Assembly (NCBI GenBank): GCA_015058295.1
Contig: SVCP01000010.1
Location: 1-46,550 of the forward strand
Length of the DNA: 46,550 bases
Reading direction: 5' to 3'
Origin: Anaerofustis stercorihominis
Lineage (GTDB): Bacteria; Bacillota; Clostridia; Eubacteriales; Anaerofustaceae
Of this stretch, positions 1 through 44,523 are shown piece by piece (the stretch's first letter is position 1; the number at the start of each line of letters is the position of its first letter). The notes beneath the pieces were generated by a model that was not told the origin of the DNA, did no database searches, and saw only the letters and a list, made by a program, of their open reading frames with translations. Made by a program: the position numbers and the translations under genes.

Positions 1-139
1 CGCATCTCTCAGAAGATTCAAAGATGACGTAAGGGAAGTTGCCGCAGGATATGAATGCGGTATCGGTATTGAAAAATACAACGACATCAAAGAAGGCGAC
101 ACGCTGGAATTCTATAAGATGGAGGAAATTCCGAGATAA
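1..139 (+). CDS. infB: Translation initiation factor IF-2, C-terminal end (partial)
   Basis: The first 139 bases read open in the frame starting at base 2 and end at TAA 137-139, giving 45 residues that include [20 protein letters not shown] and end in EEIPR. This is the typical end of the last beta-barrel domain of IF-2, the GTPase that delivers fMet-tRNA to the ribosome. The 5' part lies outside the window. The next gene, rbfA, starts two bases after the stop, the classical infB-rbfA order of Bacillota, which supports the call. The rbfA ribosome binding site (GGAGGA, 121-126) lies inside this gene. Confidence 0.9.
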
Positions 140-140
140 T

Positions 141-542
141 ATGTCAACATACAGAGTTGAACGAGTCAATCAGATAATAAAAGACGAATTATCATCTTTC
201 ATCAATTATGAAATGAACGATCCCCGTATCAAGGAGGCTGTAATCACCGTAACAGATGCAAAAGCAACTCCTGATATGAAATATGTCAAGGTGTTCGTAA
301 GCATCTACGGATGTGACGAAGAGAAGAAAAAAGAACTTCTCGGCGTACTTGACAAAGCGAAGGGATTTATGAGAAAGCATCTTTCGGGAGTACTCACAAC
401 GAGATTTACTCCGCAGATCGTTTTTGAGCTTGACACTTCACTTGATTATGCAATGCACATCGAGAAAGTGCTTTCAACGCTGGATATAAAGCCTGCAGAG
501 GAAGATGATGACGATTTTTGGGATGAATTTGATGAAGACTGA
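141..542 (+). CDS. rbfA: Ribosome-binding factor A
   Basis: A 133-residue protein beginning MSTYRVERVNQIIKDELSSF, the usual RbfA start, with the family core DPRIKEAVITVTDAKATPD and Y-K-VFVS. RbfA is a KH-type factor that binds the 30S subunit during late 16S rRNA maturation and cold adaptation. The ATG at 141 is chosen because the family starts there and GGAGGA lies upstream at 121-126, although the spacing (about 14 bases) is long; translational coupling to infB is likely. The reading frame is open further upstream to 39, but that part overlaps infB and is not family-like. The C-terminus is very acidic (EEDDDDFWDEFDED). The gene sits between infB and nrnA in one operon. Confidence 0.93.
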   Translation: MSTYRVERVNQIIKDELSSFINYEMNDPRIKEAVITVTDAKATPDMKYVKVFVSIYGCDEEKKKELLGVLDKAKGFMRKHLSGVLTTRFTPQIVFELDTSLDYAMHIEKVLSTLDIKPAEEDDDDFWDEFDED

Positions 543-18007: not shown

Positions 18008-18844
18008 ATGAAGGAAAAAACGATAACAGAAGAAAGAATGAATTTATTCCGGGAGTATCTTCTGCAGGAAGAGAAAAGTGAAGCTACGGTGGAGAAATAT
18101 ATGCGGGATATCAGATTTTTCGCGCATTTCGCAGGAGAGGAAGCTGTCACAAAGGATATAGTAAAGCGTTACAAGGAGCATCTTATAAATGCGGGATATG
18201 CGGTGAGTTCGGTGAATTCCATGCTTGCGGGGCTGAACAGCTTCCTGTCATTTTTCGGGTGGGGAGAATGTAAGGTGAAAAACATACGTCAGCAGAGGGA
18301 TGTGTACTGCAGGGAGGAGAAAAATCTGACGAAGGAGGAATATCTCAGGCTTATCGGGGCGTGCGGGAAAAACTCACAGCTGAAGCTGATAATTCAGAGC
18401 ATATGTTCTACGGGGATAAGGGTGTCTGAGCTGAAATATTTCACGGTGGAAGGACTGAGAGAGGGAGAAATCACTGTGAGGTGCAAGGGGAAGGTCAGGA
18501 GAATACTGATCCCGTCGAAGTTAAGGAAGATGCTCATGGGGTATGCCAAGAAATGCGGGATAGCTTCCGGGTGCGTTTTTGTGGGGCGGAGCGGGAAAGC
18601 GCTTCACAGGACGCAGATATGGAGAATGATGAAGTCATTGTGCAGGAAAGCGGGAGTGGAGGAGAGCAAGGTATTTCCGCACAATCTGAGGAAATTATTT
18701 GCGAAGACGTTTTACAGGATTGAGAAGGACATTGCGAAGCTTGCGGACATATTGGGGCACAGCAGTATAAACACTACGAGGATATATATTATGAGTACGG
18801 GGGTTGAGCATCTGAGGAAAATTGAGAAGCTGGGGCTGGTGTGA
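18008..18844 (+). CDS. Tyrosine recombinase (XerC/D-like; candidate DNA invertase)
   Basis: A 278-residue integrase with an N-terminal SAM-like core-binding domain (about 1-100) and a catalytic domain that is complete: Arg near 138 (STGIRVSEL), Lys near 163 (CKGKVRRI), HNLRK near 225-229 (His, Arg), LGHSS with His near 251, and the Tyr nucleophile near 260 (TTRIYIM). It cuts and rejoins DNA through a 3'-phosphotyrosine. GGAGGAAATT gives a strong start. It is not next to phage genes. The palindromic inverted repeats at 19010 and 19291 downstream are plausible targets, and the surface-protein operon lies beyond. C. difficile RecV is a known example of an orphan recombinase flipping surface-gene promoters; the parallel here is inference. 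Confidence 0.92.
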   Translation: MKEKTITEERMNLFREYLLQEEKSEATVEKYMRDIRFFAHFAGEEAVTKDIVKRYKEHLINAGYAVSSVNSMLAGLNSFLSFFGWGECKVKNIRQQRDVYCREEKNLTKEEYLRLIGACGKNSQLKLIIQSICSTGIRVSELKYFTVEGLREGEITVRCKGKVRRILIPSKLRKMLMGYAKKCGIASGCVFVGRSGKALHRTQIWRMMKSLCRKAGVEESKVFPHNLRKLFAKTFYRIEKDIAKLADILGHSSINTTRIYIMSTGVEHLRKIEKLGLV

Positions 18845-18887
18845 TGCTTGGCTGAATGAACGAATACTGAGGTTTTTTTCTATTTGT

Positions 18888-19000
18888 CAATCCCTCCCGA
18901 CACGGCAGAGCCGTGCCACCCTCCCTTACTAAGGGAGGGCTTGGACAATCCCCCCCTGCAAAATCGAAGATTTTGCTTTCTCCCTTTACATAAGGCGGCA
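18888..19000. repeat. TCCCTCC-type hairpin repeats (family A, two units)
   Basis: Unit 1 (18888-18940): CAATCCCTCCC, hairpin CACGGC-AGA-GCCGTG, then CCCTCCCTTACTAAGGGAGGG, itself a hairpin. Unit 2 (18945-19000): ACAATCCCCCC, hairpin GCAAAATC-GAA-GATTTTGC, then a degenerate CTCCCTTTACATAAGG. The same layout recurs at 19321-19375 and 44441-44496, with the same or other central hairpins. It is non-coding. The 18845-19009 gap holds nothing else I can name. Confidence 0.75.
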
Positions 19001-19009
19001 TAAAAAAAT

Positions 19010-19031
19010 AACATAATTCACATTATGTTAC
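19010..19031 (+). repeat. Left inverted repeat (recombination site candidate)
   Basis: Identical over 22 bp to the reverse complement of 19291-19312. It contains 8-bp palindrome arms around TCAC; here the arms extend to 9 bp. Confidence 0.85.
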
Positions 19032-19077
19032 ACTTTCTCGTTATAAGTACGCAGATGCACCTATGTCATCGATTACG

Positions 19078-19106
19078 AGTATACCACTGAAGGACAAAAA
19101 ATGCAA
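19078..19106 (-). promoter_or_regulatory. Promoter inside the invertible segment, facing left
   Basis: On the minus strand: TTGCAT (19106-19101), exactly 17 bases, TATACT (19083-19078). Start would be near 19071, about 40 bp inside the left repeat. If the segment flipped between its repeats, the -10 would sit at 19239-19244 on the plus strand and transcription would run through the right repeat into the operon starting at 19485. Confidence 0.65.
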
Positions 19107-19290
19107 GTACCAACAGTGAAAAAACGGATTTAAATTAATTGTAAAGTAAATTGATACAATTCATCTTACATATGACATCAAAACGACACCCTTAAATCAT
19201 TTATTTTTAACAATGATTATAAAGGGTGTACCTTTATATGCTCTTTGAATTGCAATTCATTTATTAGTCGTATTTTCACTGATGCACAAA

Positions 19291-19312
19291 GTAACATAAT
19301 GTGAATTATGTT
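19291..19312 (-). repeat. Right inverted repeat (recombination site candidate)
   Basis: Exact inverted copy of 19010-19031, with palindrome centre GTGA. The flank beyond it (GCGTGGGG) does not match the flank of the left copy. Confidence 0.85.
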
Positions 19313-19320
19313 GCGTGGGG

Positions 19321-19422
19321 ACAATCCCTCCCTGAACGGCGGAGCCGTTCTTTCTCTCCCTTACTAAGGGCGGGCCGACCCTCTCAGTCAGCTATGCTGA
19401 CAGCTCTCCCAGGGGGTGAGCC
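19321..19422. repeat. Hairpin repeats upstream of the surface operon (families A and B)
   Basis: 19321-19375 is a family A unit: ACAATCCCTCC, hairpin GAACGGC-GGA-GCCGTTC, then CTCCCTTACTAAGGGCGGG. 19376-19422 is a family B unit: CCCTCTCAG, hairpin GTCAGC-TAT-GCTGAC, AGCTCTCCC. A close copy of B is at 44616-44649. Transcripts from a flipped promoter would carry these hairpins in their leader. A weak plus-strand promoter (TTGTAT 19428-19433, 19-base spacer, TATAGA 19453-19458) follows and may give low basal expression. Confidence 0.65.
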
Positions 19423-19484
19423 TGTACTTGTATATGATGCCGTATGGCTACATATAGACAATCTTGAAGAAAGGAGAAAATAAT

Positions 19485-20195
19485 ATGAAGACAAGAAATA
19501 AGGCTTTGCTCACAGTACTTTGCGCTATTTTGCTGGTAGTTGTTTCTGTAATGGGAACACTCGCGTACCTTACAGATGATGATTCTGTAGTAAATACATT
19601 TACAGTGGGAAAAGTTGAGCTGATACTTGACGAAACAGATGTGAAAACTGACGGAACAAAGGATACAAATGAACGTGTGAAAGAAAACGAATATCATCTT
19701 ATTCCGGGACACACATACATCAAAGATCCGACAGTAACAGTAAAAGCTGACAGTGAAGATTGCTATGTAAGAATGTTTGTTGAAGTTAAAAACCTCAATC
19801 AGCTTACAGAAGTTCTCACAGCTGAAGAATACTACGGAGCATATGGAAACGGTAAGGTATTCCTTTTACAGACACTTTGTGTAGATGAAGAAGGTAATCT
19901 GACATGGGATGCTGATAAATGGGCATTTGCAGGTTACACAGAAGCAACAGCTGAAGGTGGTGCTGTTACAGGTACATATGAATTCCGTTATGTAGAAACT
20001 GCTGATGACAAAGTTGCAAAAGCTGATACAGACACAGTTCTTCCGGCATTGTTCACAGACATCACACTTCCGGGCGCACCGTTTGACAACGAAGAAATGG
20101 TAGGTCTTGAAACTGTAAAGATCAATGTATATGCACAGGCTATCCAGGCTGACGGATTCGACACAGCTGCAAAGGCATGGGCAGAATGGAACTAG
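19485..20195 (+). CDS. SipW-type (TasA/camelysin-like) surface protein 1
   Basis: A 236-residue protein. The N-terminus is a SipW-class signal peptide: basic start, hydrophobic core, then GTLAYLTDDD near residues 24-33 and NTFTVGKVEL near 37-46. Proteins with this signature are cut by the archaeal-like signal peptidase SipW and assemble as extracellular fibres (TasA) or related matrix proteins. The body is an acidic beta-rich domain with PTVTVKADSEDCYVRMFVEV, a motif shared with its neighbours. AAGGAG lies 8 bases upstream of ATG 19485; an in-frame TTG at 19464 is less likely. It is the first gene of a seven-gene operon running to 27631. Confidence 0.82.
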   Translation: MKTRNKALLTVLCAILLVVVSVMGTLAYLTDDDSVVNTFTVGKVELILDETDVKTDGTKDTNERVKENEYHLIPGHTYIKDPTVTVKADSEDCYVRMFVEVKNLNQLTEVLTAEEYYGAYGNGKVFLLQTLCVDEEGNLTWDADKWAFAGYTEATAEGGAVTGTYEFRYVETADDKVAKADTDTVLPALFTDITLPGAPFDNEEMVGLETVKINVYAQAIQADGFDTAAKAWAEWN

Positions 20196-20232: not shown

Positions 20233-20991
20233 ATGAAAAAGCTTAAGAAAACATTACTGGCATTGATCCTTGTATCGCTTGCTGTATGCGTTGTGGGAAC
20301 AACACTTGCGTGGCTTACTGATGACACCGAAGACGTTGTAAACACATTTTCACCGAGCAACATTGACGTAAAACTCGAAGAAACACCGAATACGAATACT
20401 GACGGCGAAGACGGAAATGACGCATGGTTCGGAAAGATGGTTCCCGGCTGGAAGCTTGACAAAGACCCGAAAGCATGGGTTGAAGAAGGAAGCGAAGAAT
20501 GTTATCTGTTTGTGAAAATCGGAACAAACGAAGGTTACAGCATTGAAGCAAAAACTGATGCAAACGATAAAGTAACATACCATATCGGAAATGTTGCAAA
20601 TGGTGAATACATCGTTTACGCAGTAGATTCGCAGTGGGAAGCTGTTCCGAATACTGAAAATGTATTCTATATGGTTATCGACGAAGAATCCGAAATGGGT
20701 GAAGGCGAAAACAAATACAACATTCTCGGTGCCGGTACATACGTTGACCCGATGGGCGGAACTGTAGATGTAACGATCAGCTGGGATGACAACCAGGTGG
20801 CTACAAAACCGTCTGTAACAGAACAGATGATGGAAGAATTGGAGGATCCGGCAAAGTATCCGCAGCTCACATTCAAAGCTTACGCAGTACAGCTCTGGAA
20901 AACAAACAAGCCGGCTGCAGGTGCAACAGATGCTGAAATAGAAGCAGCACAGTTCACTCCGGCAGAAGCATGGGCACTTGCGCAGCAGTAA
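20233..20991 (+). CDS. SipW-type surface protein 2
   Basis: A 252-residue protein with the SipW-class signal VGTTLAWLTDDTEDVVNTFS near residues 21-40. The body carries the neighbour motif in the form DPKAWVEEGSEECYLFVKIG near 81-100. This matches the position and spacing seen in surface protein 1, so the two are diverged paralogues. A Pro/Thr/Asp-rich acidic segment (NTNTDGEDGND) follows the signal. AAAGGAAGAG gives the start, 37 bases after the previous stop. Expected to be a fibre subunit or accessory protein outside the cell; this is inferred from the signal type and operon. Confidence 0.8.
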   Translation: MKKLKKTLLALILVSLAVCVVGTTLAWLTDDTEDVVNTFSPSNIDVKLEETPNTNTDGEDGNDAWFGKMVPGWKLDKDPKAWVEEGSEECYLFVKIGTNEGYSIEAKTDANDKVTYHIGNVANGEYIVYAVDSQWEAVPNTENVFYMVIDEESEMGEGENKYNILGAGTYVDPMGGTVDVTISWDDNQVATKPSVTEQMMEELEDPAKYPQLTFKAYAVQLWKTNKPAAGATDAEIEAAQFTPAEAWALAQQ

Positions 20992-21073: not shown

Positions 21074-22000
21074 ATGAAAAAGAAAACAATGGCAATCGTT
21101 CTTGTTGTATGTCTTCTCGCTACAGCTCTTGTAAGCGGAACACTTGCATACTTCACAGATACAGATGAAGCCACAAACGTATTCACAATGGGTAACGTTC
21201 AGATCGTACAGAACGAACAGCAGCGTGTTCTTGGTGAAACAGAAGCAGATACAGATCATGAATGCACACAAATACAAGGAGATGGACTTGAAACATTCGA
21301 AGACAATAAGGTAGCATTCCCCGCTGTTCTTAACAAACTTCAGCCGAAGGAAGATATCACAGTTAACGGTTACGATTTCACAATCCGTAAACTCGAAGGT
21401 AACTACATTGACAAAATCGTTAACGTATACAACACAGGTTCAAAAGATGCTTACGTTCGTACAATCATCGCTATCCCGAATATGAACGGATATGATGATT
21501 CTCTGGATGCTTCTGAAAATCCGTTCCACTGGAACTATCTTGATGCTACAGACTTCGAAGATGGTGTAGGTTGGGACTGGAATGGTTCTGATGATGCAGA
21601 TGTTGCTCCTCAGTTAGATAAAGTTCCTGACGTAACAATCGGTGGTAAATCTTATGATATTTATGTAGCTACATACAATGAAGCTCTTGCGCCGGGAGCG
21701 TTCACATCTCCGTCAATGGTAGGTTTCTATCTCCATGACACAGTTAACTACGGTGAACATACTGAAGTTGTAAACGGTAAGGAAATTTACCATGAAGAAG
21801 GTTACTTCTTCATAAAGAAAGATGGTTCTGTAAAATCTCTTACAGACTGGATCAAAGCTGATGAAGATGGCATTGCTACACTTGATATTCTCGTAGCTAC
21901 ACAGGCTGTTCAGACAGAAGGCTTTGATGATGCTTGGGAAGCACTTGATGAAGCATTCAAAGACATCACAAAGACAAACCATCCGTGGATTGAAGAATAA
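21074..22000 (+). CDS. SipW-type surface protein 3
   Basis: A 308-residue protein with the signal SGTLAYFTDTDEATNVFTMG near residues 21-40, the closest of the set to the TasA/CalY consensus. The body has IVNVYNTGSKDAYVRTIIAI near 115-134, the family's shared 'variably phrased N-T-G-x-x-D-A-Y-V-R' motif, and a Trp-rich segment (DGVGWDWNGSDDAD). GAAAGGAAAC precedes the ATG. Codon use is strongly biased to the same preferred codons as alaS, suggesting that this is an abundant product, possibly the major fibre subunit. A structured spacer (22033-22097) follows before the next gene. Confidence 0.82.
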   Translation: MKKKTMAIVLVVCLLATALVSGTLAYFTDTDEATNVFTMGNVQIVQNEQQRVLGETEADTDHECTQIQGDGLETFEDNKVAFPAVLNKLQPKEDITVNGYDFTIRKLEGNYIDKIVNVYNTGSKDAYVRTIIAIPNMNGYDDSLDASENPFHWNYLDATDFEDGVGWDWNGSDDADVAPQLDKVPDVTIGGKSYDIYVATYNEALAPGAFTSPSMVGFYLHDTVNYGEHTEVVNGKEIYHEEGYFFIKKDGSVKSLTDWIKADEDGIATLDILVATQAVQTEGFDDAWEALDEAFKDITKTNHPWIEE

Positions 22001-22167: not shown

Positions 22168-22731
22168 ATGAAGAAGAAAATACTTGTTTTATCTTTCGTC
22201 ATGCTATTGTTCGCTGTTGCGACAGGCAGTACACTCGCTTATTTCAATGCGGAGGATACGGCTCACAACGTCATCACATCCGGCGGCGTGGATATTGATC
22301 TGACAGAGTGGAGTGACGAAGATATGACGATTCCTTATCCGACGGAGAAGGTTCCGGTTATGCCGGGGACAACTGTGGATAAGGTGGTTGTTGTAGAGAA
22401 TCTTGAGGACGATGCATGGATTCGTGCATCATATGTCGTTACGGTTTTCGACAGCAAAGGCGAAGTGATGGATCTTGACAAAGACGAGCTTGACAGGATC
22501 ATACATATCGCAACAGGCGAAGACTGGACAGAAAAAGACGGCTGGTTCTACTACAACAAGTCAGTAAGCAGAGGCGAAGTAACAACTCCGCTGTTTTGTG
22601 AAGTGGTCTTTGACGGCCCTAACATGACGAACGAATATCAGGGCTGCGAATTCACTATCGACGTGGAAGCAGATGCAGTTCAGTCAGCAAACAACGGTGC
22701 AACAGCACTGGAAGCTGCAGGCTGGGAGTAA
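22168..22731 (+). CDS. SipW-type surface protein 4
   Basis: A 187-residue protein. Signal: GSTLAYFNAEDTAHNVITSG near residues 20-39. The body has VMPGTTVDKVVVVENLEDDA then WIRASYVVTV, the same fold core as the others (partner 26322-26900 has VVIKNTGDTDAFIRAAIVVT). These two smaller proteins are most alike and bracket the adhesin gene. AACGGAAAGGGG precedes ATG 22168. The stop is 11 bases before the adhesin gene, so they are tightly coupled. Likely an accessory subunit joining adhesin and fibre; that role is inference. Confidence 0.78.
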   Translation: MKKKILVLSFVMLLFAVATGSTLAYFNAEDTAHNVITSGGVDIDLTEWSDEDMTIPYPTEKVPVMPGTTVDKVVVVENLEDDAWIRASYVVTVFDSKGEVMDLDKDELDRIIHIATGEDWTEKDGWFYYNKSVSRGEVTTPLFCEVVFDGPNMTNEYQGCEFTIDVEADAVQSANNGATALEAAGWE

Positions 22732-22742
22732 GGAGGTAGAGT

Positions 22743-25700
22743 ATGAATAATTTCAAACGAATTTTAGCTGTACTTTTGTGCCTTCTTATGGTTGTTGCGG
22801 TGATGCCGGATATTTTTGCCGGAGAAGAAATTCCCGATGTACCTGAGTGCGATAAGGGCTGTGGTGAAGGTGTTATCTACTCACACAATAATGACTGTGC
22901 TGTAAAGGTATTTTACAGAAATCTGTATGACGAAAAAACAGCGGCAGAACTTTATGAGTTGTGGGATTCTCTCCATGAAGATGTTCAGAATTTCTATCTG
23001 AACGATTATTCGTGGAACAGCAAGATCAGCAGTCGTGAAAAACGAGCTGAACTGGTTTCTTATCTTGACGGCACGGCTACACCTCCGACAGGTGGGGATG
23101 AAGAAGATCCGGAAATTCCCGATGTGCCGGTGGATATCGAAGGTGAAAATATTGAGATCAGCGGGAAAATTCCTGCGGGATCGAAAGTTGTGATGGGAGA
23201 AACTTCCGAAAAAGTCGCAGAAATGCTTAAAGAAAAGCTTCCTCCTTGCGAAGATCATCACTACACAATCGAGTTCTTTAATATCAAGATACACGACAAA
23301 AACAATAAAGAGTGGCAGCCGAAAGAAGCTGTAACAGTTACTCTTACGCTTGAAGCATTCCTCGGGGATAACACAAACGTGGAAATTTTCCATATTCTCG
23401 ATAATGAAGATGCGATCAAAAAAGCGGAAGACAACGAAAGAACTGTTGAATCTTTCAAAGATGATGACGGAAATGATGTTTATTATACGATCATGTCTTC
23501 AGACAATGGGGAAGTAACCATCATTGATGAACACACAGTCTCCTTTGAAACGGATTCTTTCTCTGATTATGCAGCACGTGCAGGGGGGTATGCGCTCGAT
23601 GCATCTGCATACAAAAGTGACAGGGAGGTATTCTGGGACGTTGCGGAATCTAAGGGAAGCAGTTATGGTCAATATACAGGCAGTGCGACCAGAATAAAAT
23701 CCGTGTATTTTAATGGTAATCCAACTACGGGAAAGGTAGTTAAGGGAAATTCTGGCGGAAAACCTTCAGTAACTGATAAACGGTATGATTGGAGAGCATC
23801 CGGAGTTTCAGATTATGCGGAATCAGTAGGTACATATTATTCAAGCAATACTACTAGAGAACTTACGATTGTTCCCGGTGACGGATACTACGTTAAGAGA
23901 GTTATCATTGCATGTACTGCAAAGGAATTGATTCCGGGATATGGACCTTCAACAGTTATTAGTGATCCTTATGGCTGCGGAACATGGCTTGCAGGAAACC
24001 AATATGACCAGATACTCAATTTTGAGTATACAGGTGCGGTTACTATTGATGTTCCGAGGCTTGCGTTCTGCCATTTGAGTAATAACTCTCCTTCTTTTAC
24101 GAATGCTTATTTTATTCTTATTGAAGTAGGTGCATTGCCCAGTCCGTTGTATGTAGAGTATAACTATGGAGATATAGTAAAAAATCTTACAAGTGCTACA
24201 AATAAAAACGCATTTACCGGATCATCAAAATGGCTTGCTGAGTATAAAGATGCATCAGGTAATGTATTAAATGGCGGTAATTACGATCCGGATACACAGT
24301 TTACGCAGTTCAGATATAAGACTAGCGGAGATGATATTGATAAACAAGCGCAGCAGGCAGCACAATGGAAACATTATGCGAACGTAATCACTCCGGCGGC
24401 TATTGCTGCAGCAGAAGCTGAAGGCTATTTATTTAAAGGCTGGTATGCGGAGTATTATACAACATGTAATGCGTCTACACCGGGATCAAATAACAACAAT
24501 TATACATATACATTTGGCGGAGAGAGGATCTCTACAGCAGACTATCAACCGGGCGATCAGGTGCCGCTTTCACGTCATGTGAAATTAACTGCAAAATGGG
24601 AAAAAGCGGAGACGTATACGTTGACTGTAAATAAGGTTACGGTAAATGATACGGATACCAATGCTGAATTTACATTCAATGTAGAGATCGGAAATAAGAA
24701 AGAAAGCTTTACGCTGAAAAACGGTGAATCCAAAACGTATACGGCGATTAAAGGTACTTCTTATAAGGTCGAAGAAGTTACAAACAGCAATTACACAACC
24801 AAAGTCGATGGCGCACAGAGTGGTACTCTGAACAGCAATGTGACTGTAACATACACGAACACAAGAAAGGTTGCGGATGTTACGGTTGAGAAGAAAATCG
24901 TGAAGGAAGGTAATCCGGATCACGTAGGAAGTAACTTTACGTTCAGTGCGAAGCTCTGGGCAGACGGCAACAAAAACAGACAGATTCCGTTCCCGGAAAC
25001 GATCGGAACAGGAATCACACGAAGCTCTGACGGACTTACAGCAACATTTACGCTTGAGACGAACGGAAGCAAAGTGACATTCAAGAACCTGCCTGTAGGT
25101 GCGGTGCTGGAAGTTACGGAAACAAATGTCGAGAATGCTGACGAAACCACAAACGACTGCAGTCCGTCAAACAACGGAAAAACAGCTACATATGCTATAG
25201 AATCCACAACAGCAAAGACTATCACTTTCACAAACACATATGTGCAGAAGGTCGGTTCTGTAAAGGTTGTGAAGAATCTTGTGGACAATGCTTATAACAA
25301 AGACTTGATCAGAAAGTTTGAATTTACAGCAACGATGAAAGACGGTTCTGCATTTACTGACGGAAGCAAAGAAATCACGTTCAGTCTCGGAGACGGTGAA
25401 TCAAAACAGATCGATAACATTCCTATCAATTCGACGGTTGTGATCACAGAAACTGCAGTTGATGGTTATACAACAACAAATACTGCAGGAAACGGCAGCG
25501 TAGCGGAAGTTACTGTAACACAGACACTTCACACAGTTACTTTCACAAATACACGCATCACAAAGAGCCTGACCATCACGAAAAATGTTGTGAACACAGG
25601 CGAAGAACTTGAACTGATAAAAGATAGAGTTTATCCGATGGTTCTTGAGATAGACGGAAGTGTATATGCAGGTCCGGCGAAGAAGAACGGCAGTGCTGAA

Positions 25701-26309
25701 ACGGTTGCAGGCGGAAATCTTTCACTGAAGAACGGTGATACATACGTGATCGAAAATATTGCGGTCAACAGCAAGTATTCAGTAACAGAAAACATTCAGA
25801 GTGTAACAGCTCCGGACGGATTCGAATACAAGGCTCCGATGTATGCTGTCGGAGAAGGTGCTGCGACAGCGGCTCCGGTTGTTGACGCAAGCCTTACGGA
25901 TAATGCAACAGTAACCGTTACAAACGAAATCAAGGGCATCTACGGATATCTTGTGATCTCCAAAACGGGAATTGATGAGCTGGATCACAAAGCAGGTGAT
26001 GAATTCCAGAACACGATCTATCGTATTCAGTCACTTGATGCGAACGGAGATGTTGACGACAGACTCGATATGCAGGTAACTATTACATACAATGGATCAG
26101 TCCAGATAAACAAGATCCCTGTCGGAAAATATAAAGTTACGGAAATCACCGACTGGTCATGGAGATATGAACCGGAAGAAGATGTAGTTGATGTTACTGT
26201 AACAGGCGGAAAGACGGCTGAAGCTCCGTTTGAGAATGTACGAACAAACAAATATTGGCTCTCCGGTGACTGGTATGCAAGAAACTGGTGGGGCGAAGCT
26301 GCGGAATAA
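22743..26309 (+). CDS. Large isopeptide-type surface adhesin (1188 residues)
   Basis: Conventional signal peptide (cut near IFAG, residue 26), a Cys-containing N-terminal module (CDKGCGEGVIYSHNNDC), a linker, a domain ending SFETDSFSDYA near 265-275, a unique region to about 560, an InlB-like FKGWYAEYY...LTAKWE unit (about 560-620), then five tandem DUF5979/Cna-B-like domains starting near 622, 707, 836, 938 and 1062. Each has the Lys (VNKV, VEKK, VVKN, ITKN, ISKT), Glu (VEEV, VTET, ITET, VTEN, VTEI) and Asn (YTNT, FTNT, FTNT, VTNE, FENV) expected for internal Lys-Asn isopeptide bonds. It ends WYARNWWGEAAE with no sorting signal or membrane span, so it must be held by partners. GGAGG precedes the ATG. 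Expected role: tip or shaft adhesin. Confidence 0.82.
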   Translation: MNNFKRILAVLLCLLMVVAVMPDIFAGEEIPDVPECDKGCGEGVIYSHNNDCAVKVFYRNLYDEKTAAELYELWDSLHEDVQNFYLNDYSWNSKISSREKRAELVSYLDGTATPPTGGDEEDPEIPDVPVDIEGENIEISGKIPAGSKVVMGETSEKVAEMLKEKLPPCEDHHYTIEFFNIKIHDKNNKEWQPKEAVTVTLTLEAFLGDNTNVEIFHILDNEDAIKKAEDNERTVESFKDDDGNDVYYTIMSSDNGEVTIIDEHTVSFETDSFSDYAARAGGYALDASAYKSDREVFWDVAESKGSSYGQYTGSATRIKSVYFNGNPTTGKVVKGNSGGKPSVTDKRYDWRASGVSDYAESVGTYYSSNTTRELTIVPGDGYYVKRVIIACTAKELIPGYGPSTVISDPYGCGTWLAGNQYDQILNFEYTGAVTIDVPRLAFCHLSNNSPSFTNAYFILIEVGALPSPLYVEYNYGDIVKNLTSATNKNAFTGSSKWLAEYKDASGNVLNGGNYDPDTQFTQFRYKTSGDDIDKQAQQAAQWKHYANVITPAAIAAAEAEGYLFKGWYAEYYTTCNASTPGSNNNNYTYTFGGERISTADYQPGDQVPLSRHVKLTAKWEKAETYTLTVNKVTVNDTDTNAEFTFNVEIGNKKESFTLKNGESKTYTAIKGTSYKVEEVTNSNYTTKVDGAQSGTLNSNVTVTYTNTRKVADVTVEKKIVKEGNPDHVGSNFTFSAKLWADGNKNRQIPFPETIGTGITRSSDGLTATFTLETNGSKVTFKNLPVGAVLEVTETNVENADETTNDCSPSNNGKTATYAIESTTAKTITFTNTYVQKVGSVKVVKNLVDNAYNKDLIRKFEFTATMKDGSAFTDGSKEITFSLGDGESKQIDNIPINSTVVITETAVDGYTTTNTAGNGSVAEVTVTQTLHTVTFTNTRITKSLTITKNVVNTGEELELIKDRVYPMVLEIDGSVYAGPAKKNGSAETVAGGNLSLKNGDTYVIENIAVNSKYSVTENIQSVTAPDGFEYKAPMYAVGEGAATAAPVVDASLTDNATVTVTNEIKGIYGYLVISKTGIDELDHKAGDEFQNTIYRIQSLDANGDVDDRLDMQVTITYNGSVQINKIPVGKYKVTEITDWSWRYEPEEDVVDVTVTGGKTAEAPFENVRTNKYWLSGDWYARNWWGEAAE

Positions 26310-26321
26310 GGAGGCACAAAG

Positions 26322-26900
26322 ATGAAAAAGACGAAAATCAAAGCAATTTCGCTGATGATCTGCCTTCTTATGGTTGTCGGCGTTGTTGTCGGAGGAACGG
26401 TTGCTTATCTGAAAGCGGAAAGCGACGAGGTTGATAATACATTTACTCCGTCAGAAGTAACGACGGATGTTGTTGAAGATACAGAATCGTTTGAAAAAGA
26501 AGGAATCAAGAAAGATGTTGTAATCAAAAACACAGGCGACACGGACGCATTCATCAGAGCAGCGATAGTTGTGACATGGCAGGATAAACAGGGCAATGTT
26601 TACGGACAGAAGCCTGCGGAAGGTGATTATACCATTGATATGGGTGATGAAGGCTGGGTTAAAGGTTCAGACGGATTTTGGTACTATACAAGCGTTGTTC
26701 CTGCAAATGGAAGCACAAAAAATCTGATTGATACTGTCACATGCACAGGCACAGCGCCGGATACAAACTACAAACTTTGCGTTGAAATCCTCGGTTCAGG
26801 TGTTCAGGCAGGACCTGCAGCAGCGGTTGAAGCGTGGTCAGATGGCGTTGCGGAGCTTGATGAAGGCTGGCAGACGATTACAGTACAGGAGGTTGAATAA
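26322..26900 (+). CDS. SipW-type surface protein 5
   Basis: A 192-residue protein with signal VVGGTVAYLKAESDEVDNTF near residues 22-41, then KKDVVIKNTGDTDAFIRAAI near 64-83. This is the clearest example in the operon of the shared 'NTGDTDAFIRA' core. GGAGGCACAAAG lies upstream of the ATG, 12 bases after the adhesin stop. Its stop shares a base with the next ATG (TAATG), so the sortase-anchored protein is translationally coupled to it, hinting that the two products interact. Function in fibre assembly is inferred from the signal type and neighbours. Confidence 0.8.
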   Translation: MKKTKIKAISLMICLLMVVGVVVGGTVAYLKAESDEVDNTFTPSEVTTDVVEDTESFEKEGIKKDVVIKNTGDTDAFIRAAIVVTWQDKQGNVYGQKPAEGDYTIDMGDEGWVKGSDGFWYYTSVVPANGSTKNLIDTVTCTGTAPDTNYKLCVEILGSGVQAGPAAAVEAWSDGVAELDEGWQTITVQEVE

Positions 26901-27631
26901 TGAAAAAGCTTAGAAAGATCTCCTCAATTCTGATAGTTATGATGCTGATTCTCAGCATGGGAAGCGTATTTGCGGCAGATTCAACGATCACATACAACGG
27001 CAAGGGCTTCGAAGACAAATTCGGTTTTGCTCCGGGAAGCGAATATACGGATACAGACCTTTTCGACGGATTCAGGAACGTAATGCCCGGTGATCAGCTG
27101 GAAGAAGTGATCACTTTCACAAATGAAGCAAAGACATGCGACAAGATCAATGTGTATATGAAAGCTGTTGCACATGACGAAGAAGGCAATCCGCTTACAT
27201 ATGACGAAGCTTTCGAAGATGTTGACGGCAAAGATCAGGAACACATCGACGGACAGCGAGATGAAACTGTTGCGACGATGGCAGAATTCCTGCAGCAGCT
27301 CACGATGCGCATTTATAACGGCACAGAGCTTATCTTTGACGGCACACCTGACGAAGAAGGAGCACTTGCGGATTTCGTGAAGCTTGGTGAGCTTACAAAA
27401 GGCAAGAGCATTGTTCTGACAGTTGAGCTGGATGTGCCAATTGAGCTTGACAACAGATTTGCGCACAGAGTAGGCGAAGTTGACTGGGTATTTATGGTTG
27501 AAGAAATCATAGAAGAAGCACCTGATACAGGCGACAACGCAAACCTGCTGATTTACGGCGGAATATTCGCAGTATCTGTTGCAGTGCTGTTTGTAGTGGT
27601 TCTTAAAAAGAAAAAGAATGAAAATGTCTAA
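26900..27631 (+). CDS. Sortase-anchored surface protein (operon anchor)
   Basis: A 243-residue protein with an ordinary signal peptide (cut near VFA, residue 25). The C-terminus is a cell-wall sorting signal: APDTGD near 207-212, a hydrophobic span (LLIYGGIFAVSVAVLFVVVL) and KKKK. The motif is the variant xPxTG form used by many Clostridia sortases. The body carries DQLEEVITFTNEAKTCDKIN and VILTVELDVPI-type strands, with a fold like the SipW-type proteins although its signal is not of that class. It is the only gene in the operon with a wall anchor, so it may tie the whole fibre to peptidoglycan. No sortase gene is present in the window. Confidence 0.82.
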   Translation: MKKLRKISSILIVMMLILSMGSVFAADSTITYNGKGFEDKFGFAPGSEYTDTDLFDGFRNVMPGDQLEEVITFTNEAKTCDKINVYMKAVAHDEEGNPLTYDEAFEDVDGKDQEHIDGQRDETVATMAEFLQQLTMRIYNGTELIFDGTPDEEGALADFVKLGELTKGKSIVLTVELDVPIELDNRFAHRVGEVDWVFMVEEIIEEAPDTGDNANLLIYGGIFAVSVAVLFVVVLKKKKNENV

Positions 27632-44272: not shown

Positions 44273-44440
44273 CATTTTTTTATGAAAACAAGGGATTTTT
44301 TGCACTTTATAACACTGATGTGTGTATTATATCACATATATTTGCGGTTGTATACAGTAAGTTGTCTGATTCATGTATGGAAAGTAACCGGCTTTGATAC
44401 GGATCTTCCTGTTAATATTTCACAGATGTTTACTTCGTCG

Positions 44441-44523
44441 ATCCCTCCCTGCAAAATCGTGGATTTTGCTTCCCTCCCTTTTTCGCAAGGGAGGGCTTAA
44501 AAGGCCCCTTTGTGCAAAGGGGG
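44441..44523. repeat. TCCCTCC-type hairpin repeat (family A)
   Basis: ATCCCTCCCT, hairpin GCAAAATC-GTG-GATTTTGC (the same arms as in 18945-19000), CCTCCCTTTTTCGCAAGGGAGG, then a further hairpin GCCCCTTTGTGCAAAGGGGGC-like (44503-44523). Non-coding. Confidence 0.7.

Follow-up and report, generated by a model that had tools for sequence, protein, structure and literature searches.

The 46,550-nt contig SVCP01000010.1 of Anaerofustis stercorihominis (assembly GCA_015058295.1, a draft genome of 1.83 Mb), here called the window, very probably carries a self-contained promoter switch, in which a tyrosine recombinase would turn an adjacent surface operon ON and OFF by inverting a short DNA segment. 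We infer from the sequence that the copy in the window itself flips. Comparison of related loci indicates that the same switch kit is reused across many gut Clostridia.

Organization of the proposed switch locus

The elements of the locus, in the order of their coordinates, are as follows.

18008..18844, + strand: tyrosine recombinase of 278 aa (PF00589, PF02899), proposed invertase of the adjacent segment
19010..19031, + strand: left recombination site, 22/22 repeat with the family core (ACATAAT-TCAC-ATTATGT, 19011-19028; spacer 19018-19021)
19029..19293, no strand: proposed invertible segment, spanning the 265 bp from one 18-bp core to the other; its counterpart is inverted between the relatives L054 and L059
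19078..19106, - strand: predicted promoter TTGCAT-17-TATACT with a TGn extended -10 (-35 at 19106-19101, -10 at 19083-19078), pointing at the recombinase
19186..19229, no strand: hairpin behind the promoter, the terminator-like element of the family (-15.1 and -17.7 kcal/mol; z -4.9 and -4.3)
19291..19312, - strand: right recombination site, repeat with the family core (19294-19311; spacer 19301-19304, GTGA on the + strand)
19334..19350, + strand: terminator-like hairpin within a dispersed repeat, after the right site and ahead of the operon

The two sites had been predicted as exact 22-bp inverted repeats, and they match at 22/22 positions with 259 bp between them. Across the whole window, no other inverted repeat reaches 16 bp with its arms up to 1.5 kb apart, and by our own arithmetic the chance expectation for a 22-bp inverted pair at such range is about 4e-6. 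Each repeat also has the proposed structure of a palindrome with an asymmetric centre, AACATAAT-TCAC-ATTATGTT, the centre being reverse-complemented in the partner. The exact site core has no further occurrence in the draft genome.

The recombinase gene is intact, as the original prediction held, and all catalytic residues are present. These residues (R138, K162, H225, R228, H251 and Y260) are invariant across 46 homologues and identify the protein as a tyrosine recombinase. It is Xer-like, yet scores below the NCBIfam cut-offs for XerA (archaeal-type, NF040815; 145.5 against 220 bits), XerC (110 against 335 bits) and XerD (107 against 330 bits). Similarity to the FimB/FimE-type models NF007371 and NF007370 is low (E 2e-6 and 9e-6).

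The left site lies about 170 bp (169) from the end of the recombinase gene, which is above the usual spacing of the family because of an inserted repeat. Copies of this GC-rich, palindromic dispersed repeat flank the switch at 18885-18990 and 19319-19376, and a further copy is located at 44433-44481. The genome contains 16 matches to this repeat, which also borders the SipW peptidase gene (contig C77) on either side. A second, imperfect inverted repeat (19111-19126/19269-19284; 16 nt, 88%) is found within the invertible segment and is a possible regulator site. Rfam returned no RNA element.

With dispersed repeats on both sides, one of them bearing a terminator-like hairpin before the operon, the window might hold a locked ancestral switch that has stopped flipping or has been uncoupled from its operon by the insertions. 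A decayed relative with degenerate arms is known (L081). Locked copies are expected to drift, whereas the sites here are perfect and the enzyme retains every catalytic residue, which makes a locked copy unlikely.

A family of paired sites across Clostridia

Full-length relatives of the recombinase (38-62% identity) are distributed patchily over many Clostridia families. Within the organism's own family, a strong relative is present in genome G007 only. Counting the window, 40 loci have two ACATAAT-NNNN-ATTATGT sites directly 3' of the recombinase gene, separated by 149-308 bp. Loci were counted when they had at least two copies of this pattern with at most one arm mismatch; under the criteria applied, a paired site is missing from 7 of the 48 loci examined, three of them explained by a contig end.

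Spacer pairing was scored on pairs chosen by their arms alone and more than 100 bp apart. The spacers within a locus are reverse-complementary in all 46 such pairs, with a chance of 1 in 256 per pair. Among loci the spacers vary (33 distinct in 40). Likeness between paired sites is lost about 5 bases beyond the arms, so that identity is confined to arms and spacer, the pattern that recombination would require. Three more loci, from records named Subdoligranulum and Monoglobus, follow the same paired-spacer rule. Among 198 relatives the exact core is present in 36 genomes, mostly recombinase carriers; single, often A/T-only matches in genomes without a close recombinase relative look like background.

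The core resembles the inner regions of published dif sites, e.g. ACATAATGTATATTATGG (PMC2731167), and the host XerC/XerD pair for chromosome resolution, rather than the adjacent enzyme, might therefore act on the sites. This is very unlikely, given that the sites adjoin a recombinase of this family in 40 loci and that both arms are the same here, whereas the arms of dif differ for the two enzymes. Moreover, the arms differ in loci with divergent recombinases (L084, L085). The adjacent recombinase is thus the preferred candidate for the enzyme that would recognize the sites.

Several loci show further features. A third site in direct orientation is found in eight loci, 32-34 bp (once 63 bp) from one end, usually the promoter end. 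A wider list of loci with such a site comprises L048, L050, L056, L061, L062, L066, L068, L071 and L256, with distances of 32-34, 55 or 63 bp that lie near whole helical turns. The doublet would fit inversion via the outer site, with the doublet carried along. The outer base of the left-site spacer is a pyrimidine in 36/40 loci (e.g. L048-L087), a bias that perhaps sets which strand is cut first. Genome G167 contains three near-duplicate modules (L077, L078 and L081) with similar, prophage-like downstream genes, and two of them share one spacer.

Inversion and helical phasing

Both orientations of the segment occur among relatives. L054 and L059 stem from genomes of different families and encode recombinases that are 88% identical. 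Relative to the end of the recombinase gene, the two loci align collinearly from -1048 to +44 with 85% identity. Beyond the gene, positions 22..273 of one match 273..22 of the other on the opposite strand, at 83% identity. By this alignment, the inversion is bounded exactly by the two sites. The reading of the segment in the window as an invertible promoter, put forward in the original prediction, thus gains support from its family: the unit recurs in 40 loci, promoters point in both directions and one close pair is inverted.

Genome G108 has a contig whose start coincides with the first base of a site, and the matching contig ends within the segment, as expected if the assembled reads contained both orientations; these contig ends are only suggestive. 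A search for a flipped partner of the G108 contig end recovered only the contig end itself. At the DNA level, a search of 198 relatives for the window segment or a flipped copy returned the window's own copy, the other matches being short and chance-like.

The distances between paired sites are periodic at 10.3-10.4 bp (periods of 6-20 scanned). None of 5000 jittered sets was as strongly periodic, with kinship among the loci partly controlled. The window, with a site-to-site distance of 283 bp, lies 1.3 bp off the common phase. A periodicity of about 10.4 bp fits a need for the two sites to face the same side of the helix when a short DNA loop brings them together.

The scatter of the family over distant Clostridia with differing cargo suggests horizontal spread, and distant relatives are also known from plasmid and phage records. 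The locus could on these grounds be a mobile element, either an integrase with its attachment sites or a miniature transposon. The latter had been named as the alternative, a 303-bp unit inserted elsewhere; the unit turned out to be single-copy in the genome and tied to the recombinase gene in relatives. The sites are moreover inverted rather than direct and fixed 3' of the gene, and inversion at them is evident in L054/L059, all of which makes a mobile element extremely unlikely. Viral contigs gave no recombinase relatives by the peptide patterns used; the core pattern by itself does occur in them, and none of the stretches among the matches listed has two exact cores.

Promoter, hairpins and state of the window

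In 41 segments of the family, the best sigma-A-type promoter is located near one end and often reads TTGACA-17-TATAAT. In 32 of the 41 it scores better than 95% of shuffles. The promoter points toward the cargo in 14 loci and toward the recombinase in 27. Its -10 is most commonly located 37 bp from the site core, with further groups near 26 and 48 bp. A stable hairpin is typically found on the side opposite the promoter (Fisher p 1.6e-5, an approximate value as the loci are related). These hairpins often resemble bidirectional terminators, e.g. AAAAAAGCCTTTCC...GGAAAGGCTTTTTT in L040.

Since a stable hairpin is usual in the segments, the element that matters could instead be a terminator, as in C. 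difficile cwpV, where a flipped hairpin controls the passage of transcription from outside (PMC2784873). Such a mechanism is improbable here: in most segments a near-consensus promoter keeps a fixed distance to one site, and the hairpins are largely symmetric, so that a flip would change termination little. Inversion of a promoter remains the preferred reading.

The promoter of the window was found at the position and in the direction originally described, away from the operon; taken alone it is of moderate quality, as its -35 matches 3/6 consensus bases and an equally good promoter turns up in 21% of shuffled window segments (p 0.21). Owing to this -35, a simple promoter scan omits it. The -10 and the site core are 49 bp apart, compared with 49 bp in L037 and 47 bp in both L048 and L040, the closest relatives. 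Inverted recombination sites thus flank a predicted promoter upstream of a gene, as in a promoter inverton. The hairpin at 19186-19229 has weak T tracts.

A minus-strand promoter at the left end with the hairpin behind it is the OFF layout of the family. The assembled state of the window is therefore most likely OFF, a call made on the fit of promoter position and direction to the family despite the moderate score. After inversion, the -35 is predicted at 19216-19221, the -10 at 19239-19244 and the transcription start near 19251. The start had been placed about 235 bases before the first gene; the computed distance to the gene start at 19485 is 234 bp. The hairpin at 19334-19350 could attenuate this ON transcript.

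Surface operon and cargo

The genes downstream of the switch are the following.

19485..20195, + strand: first gene under proposed control, SipW-dependent-type secreted protein (TIGR04088)
20233..20991, + strand: secreted-type protein, N-terminus similar; no model match
21074..22000, + strand: SipW-dependent / camelysin-like protein (PF12389, TIGR04088)
22168..22731, + strand: BsaA-family SipW-dependent protein (TIGR04090, TIGR04088)
22743..26309, + strand: secreted multi-domain protein of 1188 aa, adhesin-like (DUF7601, DUF5979 repeats)
26322..26900, + strand: BsaA-family SipW-dependent protein (TIGR04090, E 2.4e-15, 56.9 bits against a cut-off of 60)
26900..27631, + strand: LPXTG-anchored surface protein (TIGR01167)

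Of the surface-fibre operon proposed for this region, the surface part is borne out by four proteins with SipW-dependent or BsaA matches and one LPXTG anchor, and the products may form a fibre. A SipW-type peptidase gene is located on another contig of the genome. The same-genus genome G001 also encodes SipW-type relatives; it lacks the site core, and the operon stretch examined contains no inverted repeat. Its contigs C30, C78, C16, C28, C73, C62 and C47 have many loci for larger proteins akin to the SipW-type cargo.

Among relatives, the first cargo genes include S-layer homology proteins, BspA-type repeats, pilin-like and Cna_B proteins. Others encode an O-antigen ligase, a glycosyltransferase, a chain-length protein, a chemotaxis receptor, SPFH, Hsp70 and TetR regulators. 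N-terminal hydrophobic segments are encoded by 37/71 downstream genes and by 8/38 flanking genes (p 0.002). In L070 (genome G170), the gene that follows the module encodes a CAP12/Pycsar-type TIR domain together with a cupin and is possibly a phase-variable defence gene.

Proposed mechanism and implications

The recombinase would bind the two palindromic dif-like sites, each probably occupied by two copies of the same enzyme. The sites would be brought together, and strands would be cut and exchanged inside the central spacer, inverting the 265-bp segment. As exchange needs identical spacers, the pairing of TCAC with GTGA would force inversion and not deletion. With the segment turned ON, transcription from the promoter would run into the SipW-dependent/LPXTG surface operon that begins at 19485. 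As assembled, the promoter faces the recombinase, which would leave the operon without that promoter, and in this OFF orientation the hairpin may block read-through. Expression of the operon would accordingly be phase-variable, and for A. stercorihominis a SipW-dependent, LPXTG-linked surface layer is predicted in only part of the population.

More tentatively, with somewhat less than an even chance, the loci may form a modular family derived from dif, with one enzyme type, a fixed palindromic arm, a drifting 4-bp spacer that serves as address, and sites and promoter on one helix face. If the spacer is an address, a genome could accommodate several copies that do not recombine among themselves. 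The locus-specific spacer makes specificity between copies directly testable and could provide a set of small, possibly orthogonal inversion switches. If sites and promoter share a helix face, the bound recombinase may also touch transcription.

The loci follow a simple sequence rule: a recombinase, then an ACATAAT-NNNN-ATTATGT pair with complementary spacers, and a promoter about 37 or 48 bp from one site. Applied to uncultured gut Clostridia, this rule yields candidates for phase-variable surface operons and needs no reads; it also reveals the state captured by an assembly.

Comparison with known systems

Promoter inversion by an adjacent tyrosine recombinase is of an already known kind. The papers searched gave no description of the dif-like core, the paired 4-bp spacer, the built-in terminator or the helical phasing.

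XerC/XerD belong to the same recombinase family and act at dif, which shares the inner core ATAAT-NNNN-ATTAT with a variable centre (PMC2731167). dif is a single chromosomal site with two different arms that serves dimer resolution, whereas the sites here are palindromic inverted pairs 149-308 bp apart. From their sequence, the switch arms look like a palindromised dif core. No B. subtilis-type dif was found in the genome at up to 3 mismatches.

The RecV switches of C. difficile (cwpV, flagellar, cmr) are likewise found in Clostridia and combine a single Xer-type tyrosine recombinase with surface genes; they have imperfect repeats of about 21 bp and segments of 154-230 bp (PMC2784873, PMC5903667). 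The comparison with RecV made in the original prediction is apt for class and size and less so for the sites, which resemble palindromised dif cores and not demonstrated RecV sites. RecV is a master enzyme for several sites with mostly unrelated repeats, whereas here a single enzyme neighbours a single pair, whose core is shared. The cwpV promoter is located outside its segment, in contrast to the promoter inside the segment here.

The Xer-type recombinase XerC of Ureaplasma inverts DNA between short repeats at the mba locus and thereby varies surface proteins; it differs in its site sequence, in being unlinked and in the coding sequences within the inversion (PMC3599477).

The E. coli fim switch (FimB/FimE) is similar in its 314-bp invertible promoter element, the recombinase genes in the locus and its surface cargo. 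Unlike the window system, it uses two recombinases, short repeats and accessory proteins.

In a gut inverton survey from 2025, the passages on inverton group 139 (invertase group 35) assign 32 of 33 members to class Clostridia and place a tyrosine recombinase near nearly all of them (PMC11892184). For two members, the inverted repeats given are 13 and 25 bp long and the segments between them 228 and 206 bp, and reads for the group have orientations that shift with passage and surface attachment. These passages mention no terminator, spacer code or dif-like core, and the likeness to the window family is one of geometry. Judged by this geometry, group 139 probably already includes relatives of the switch described here.
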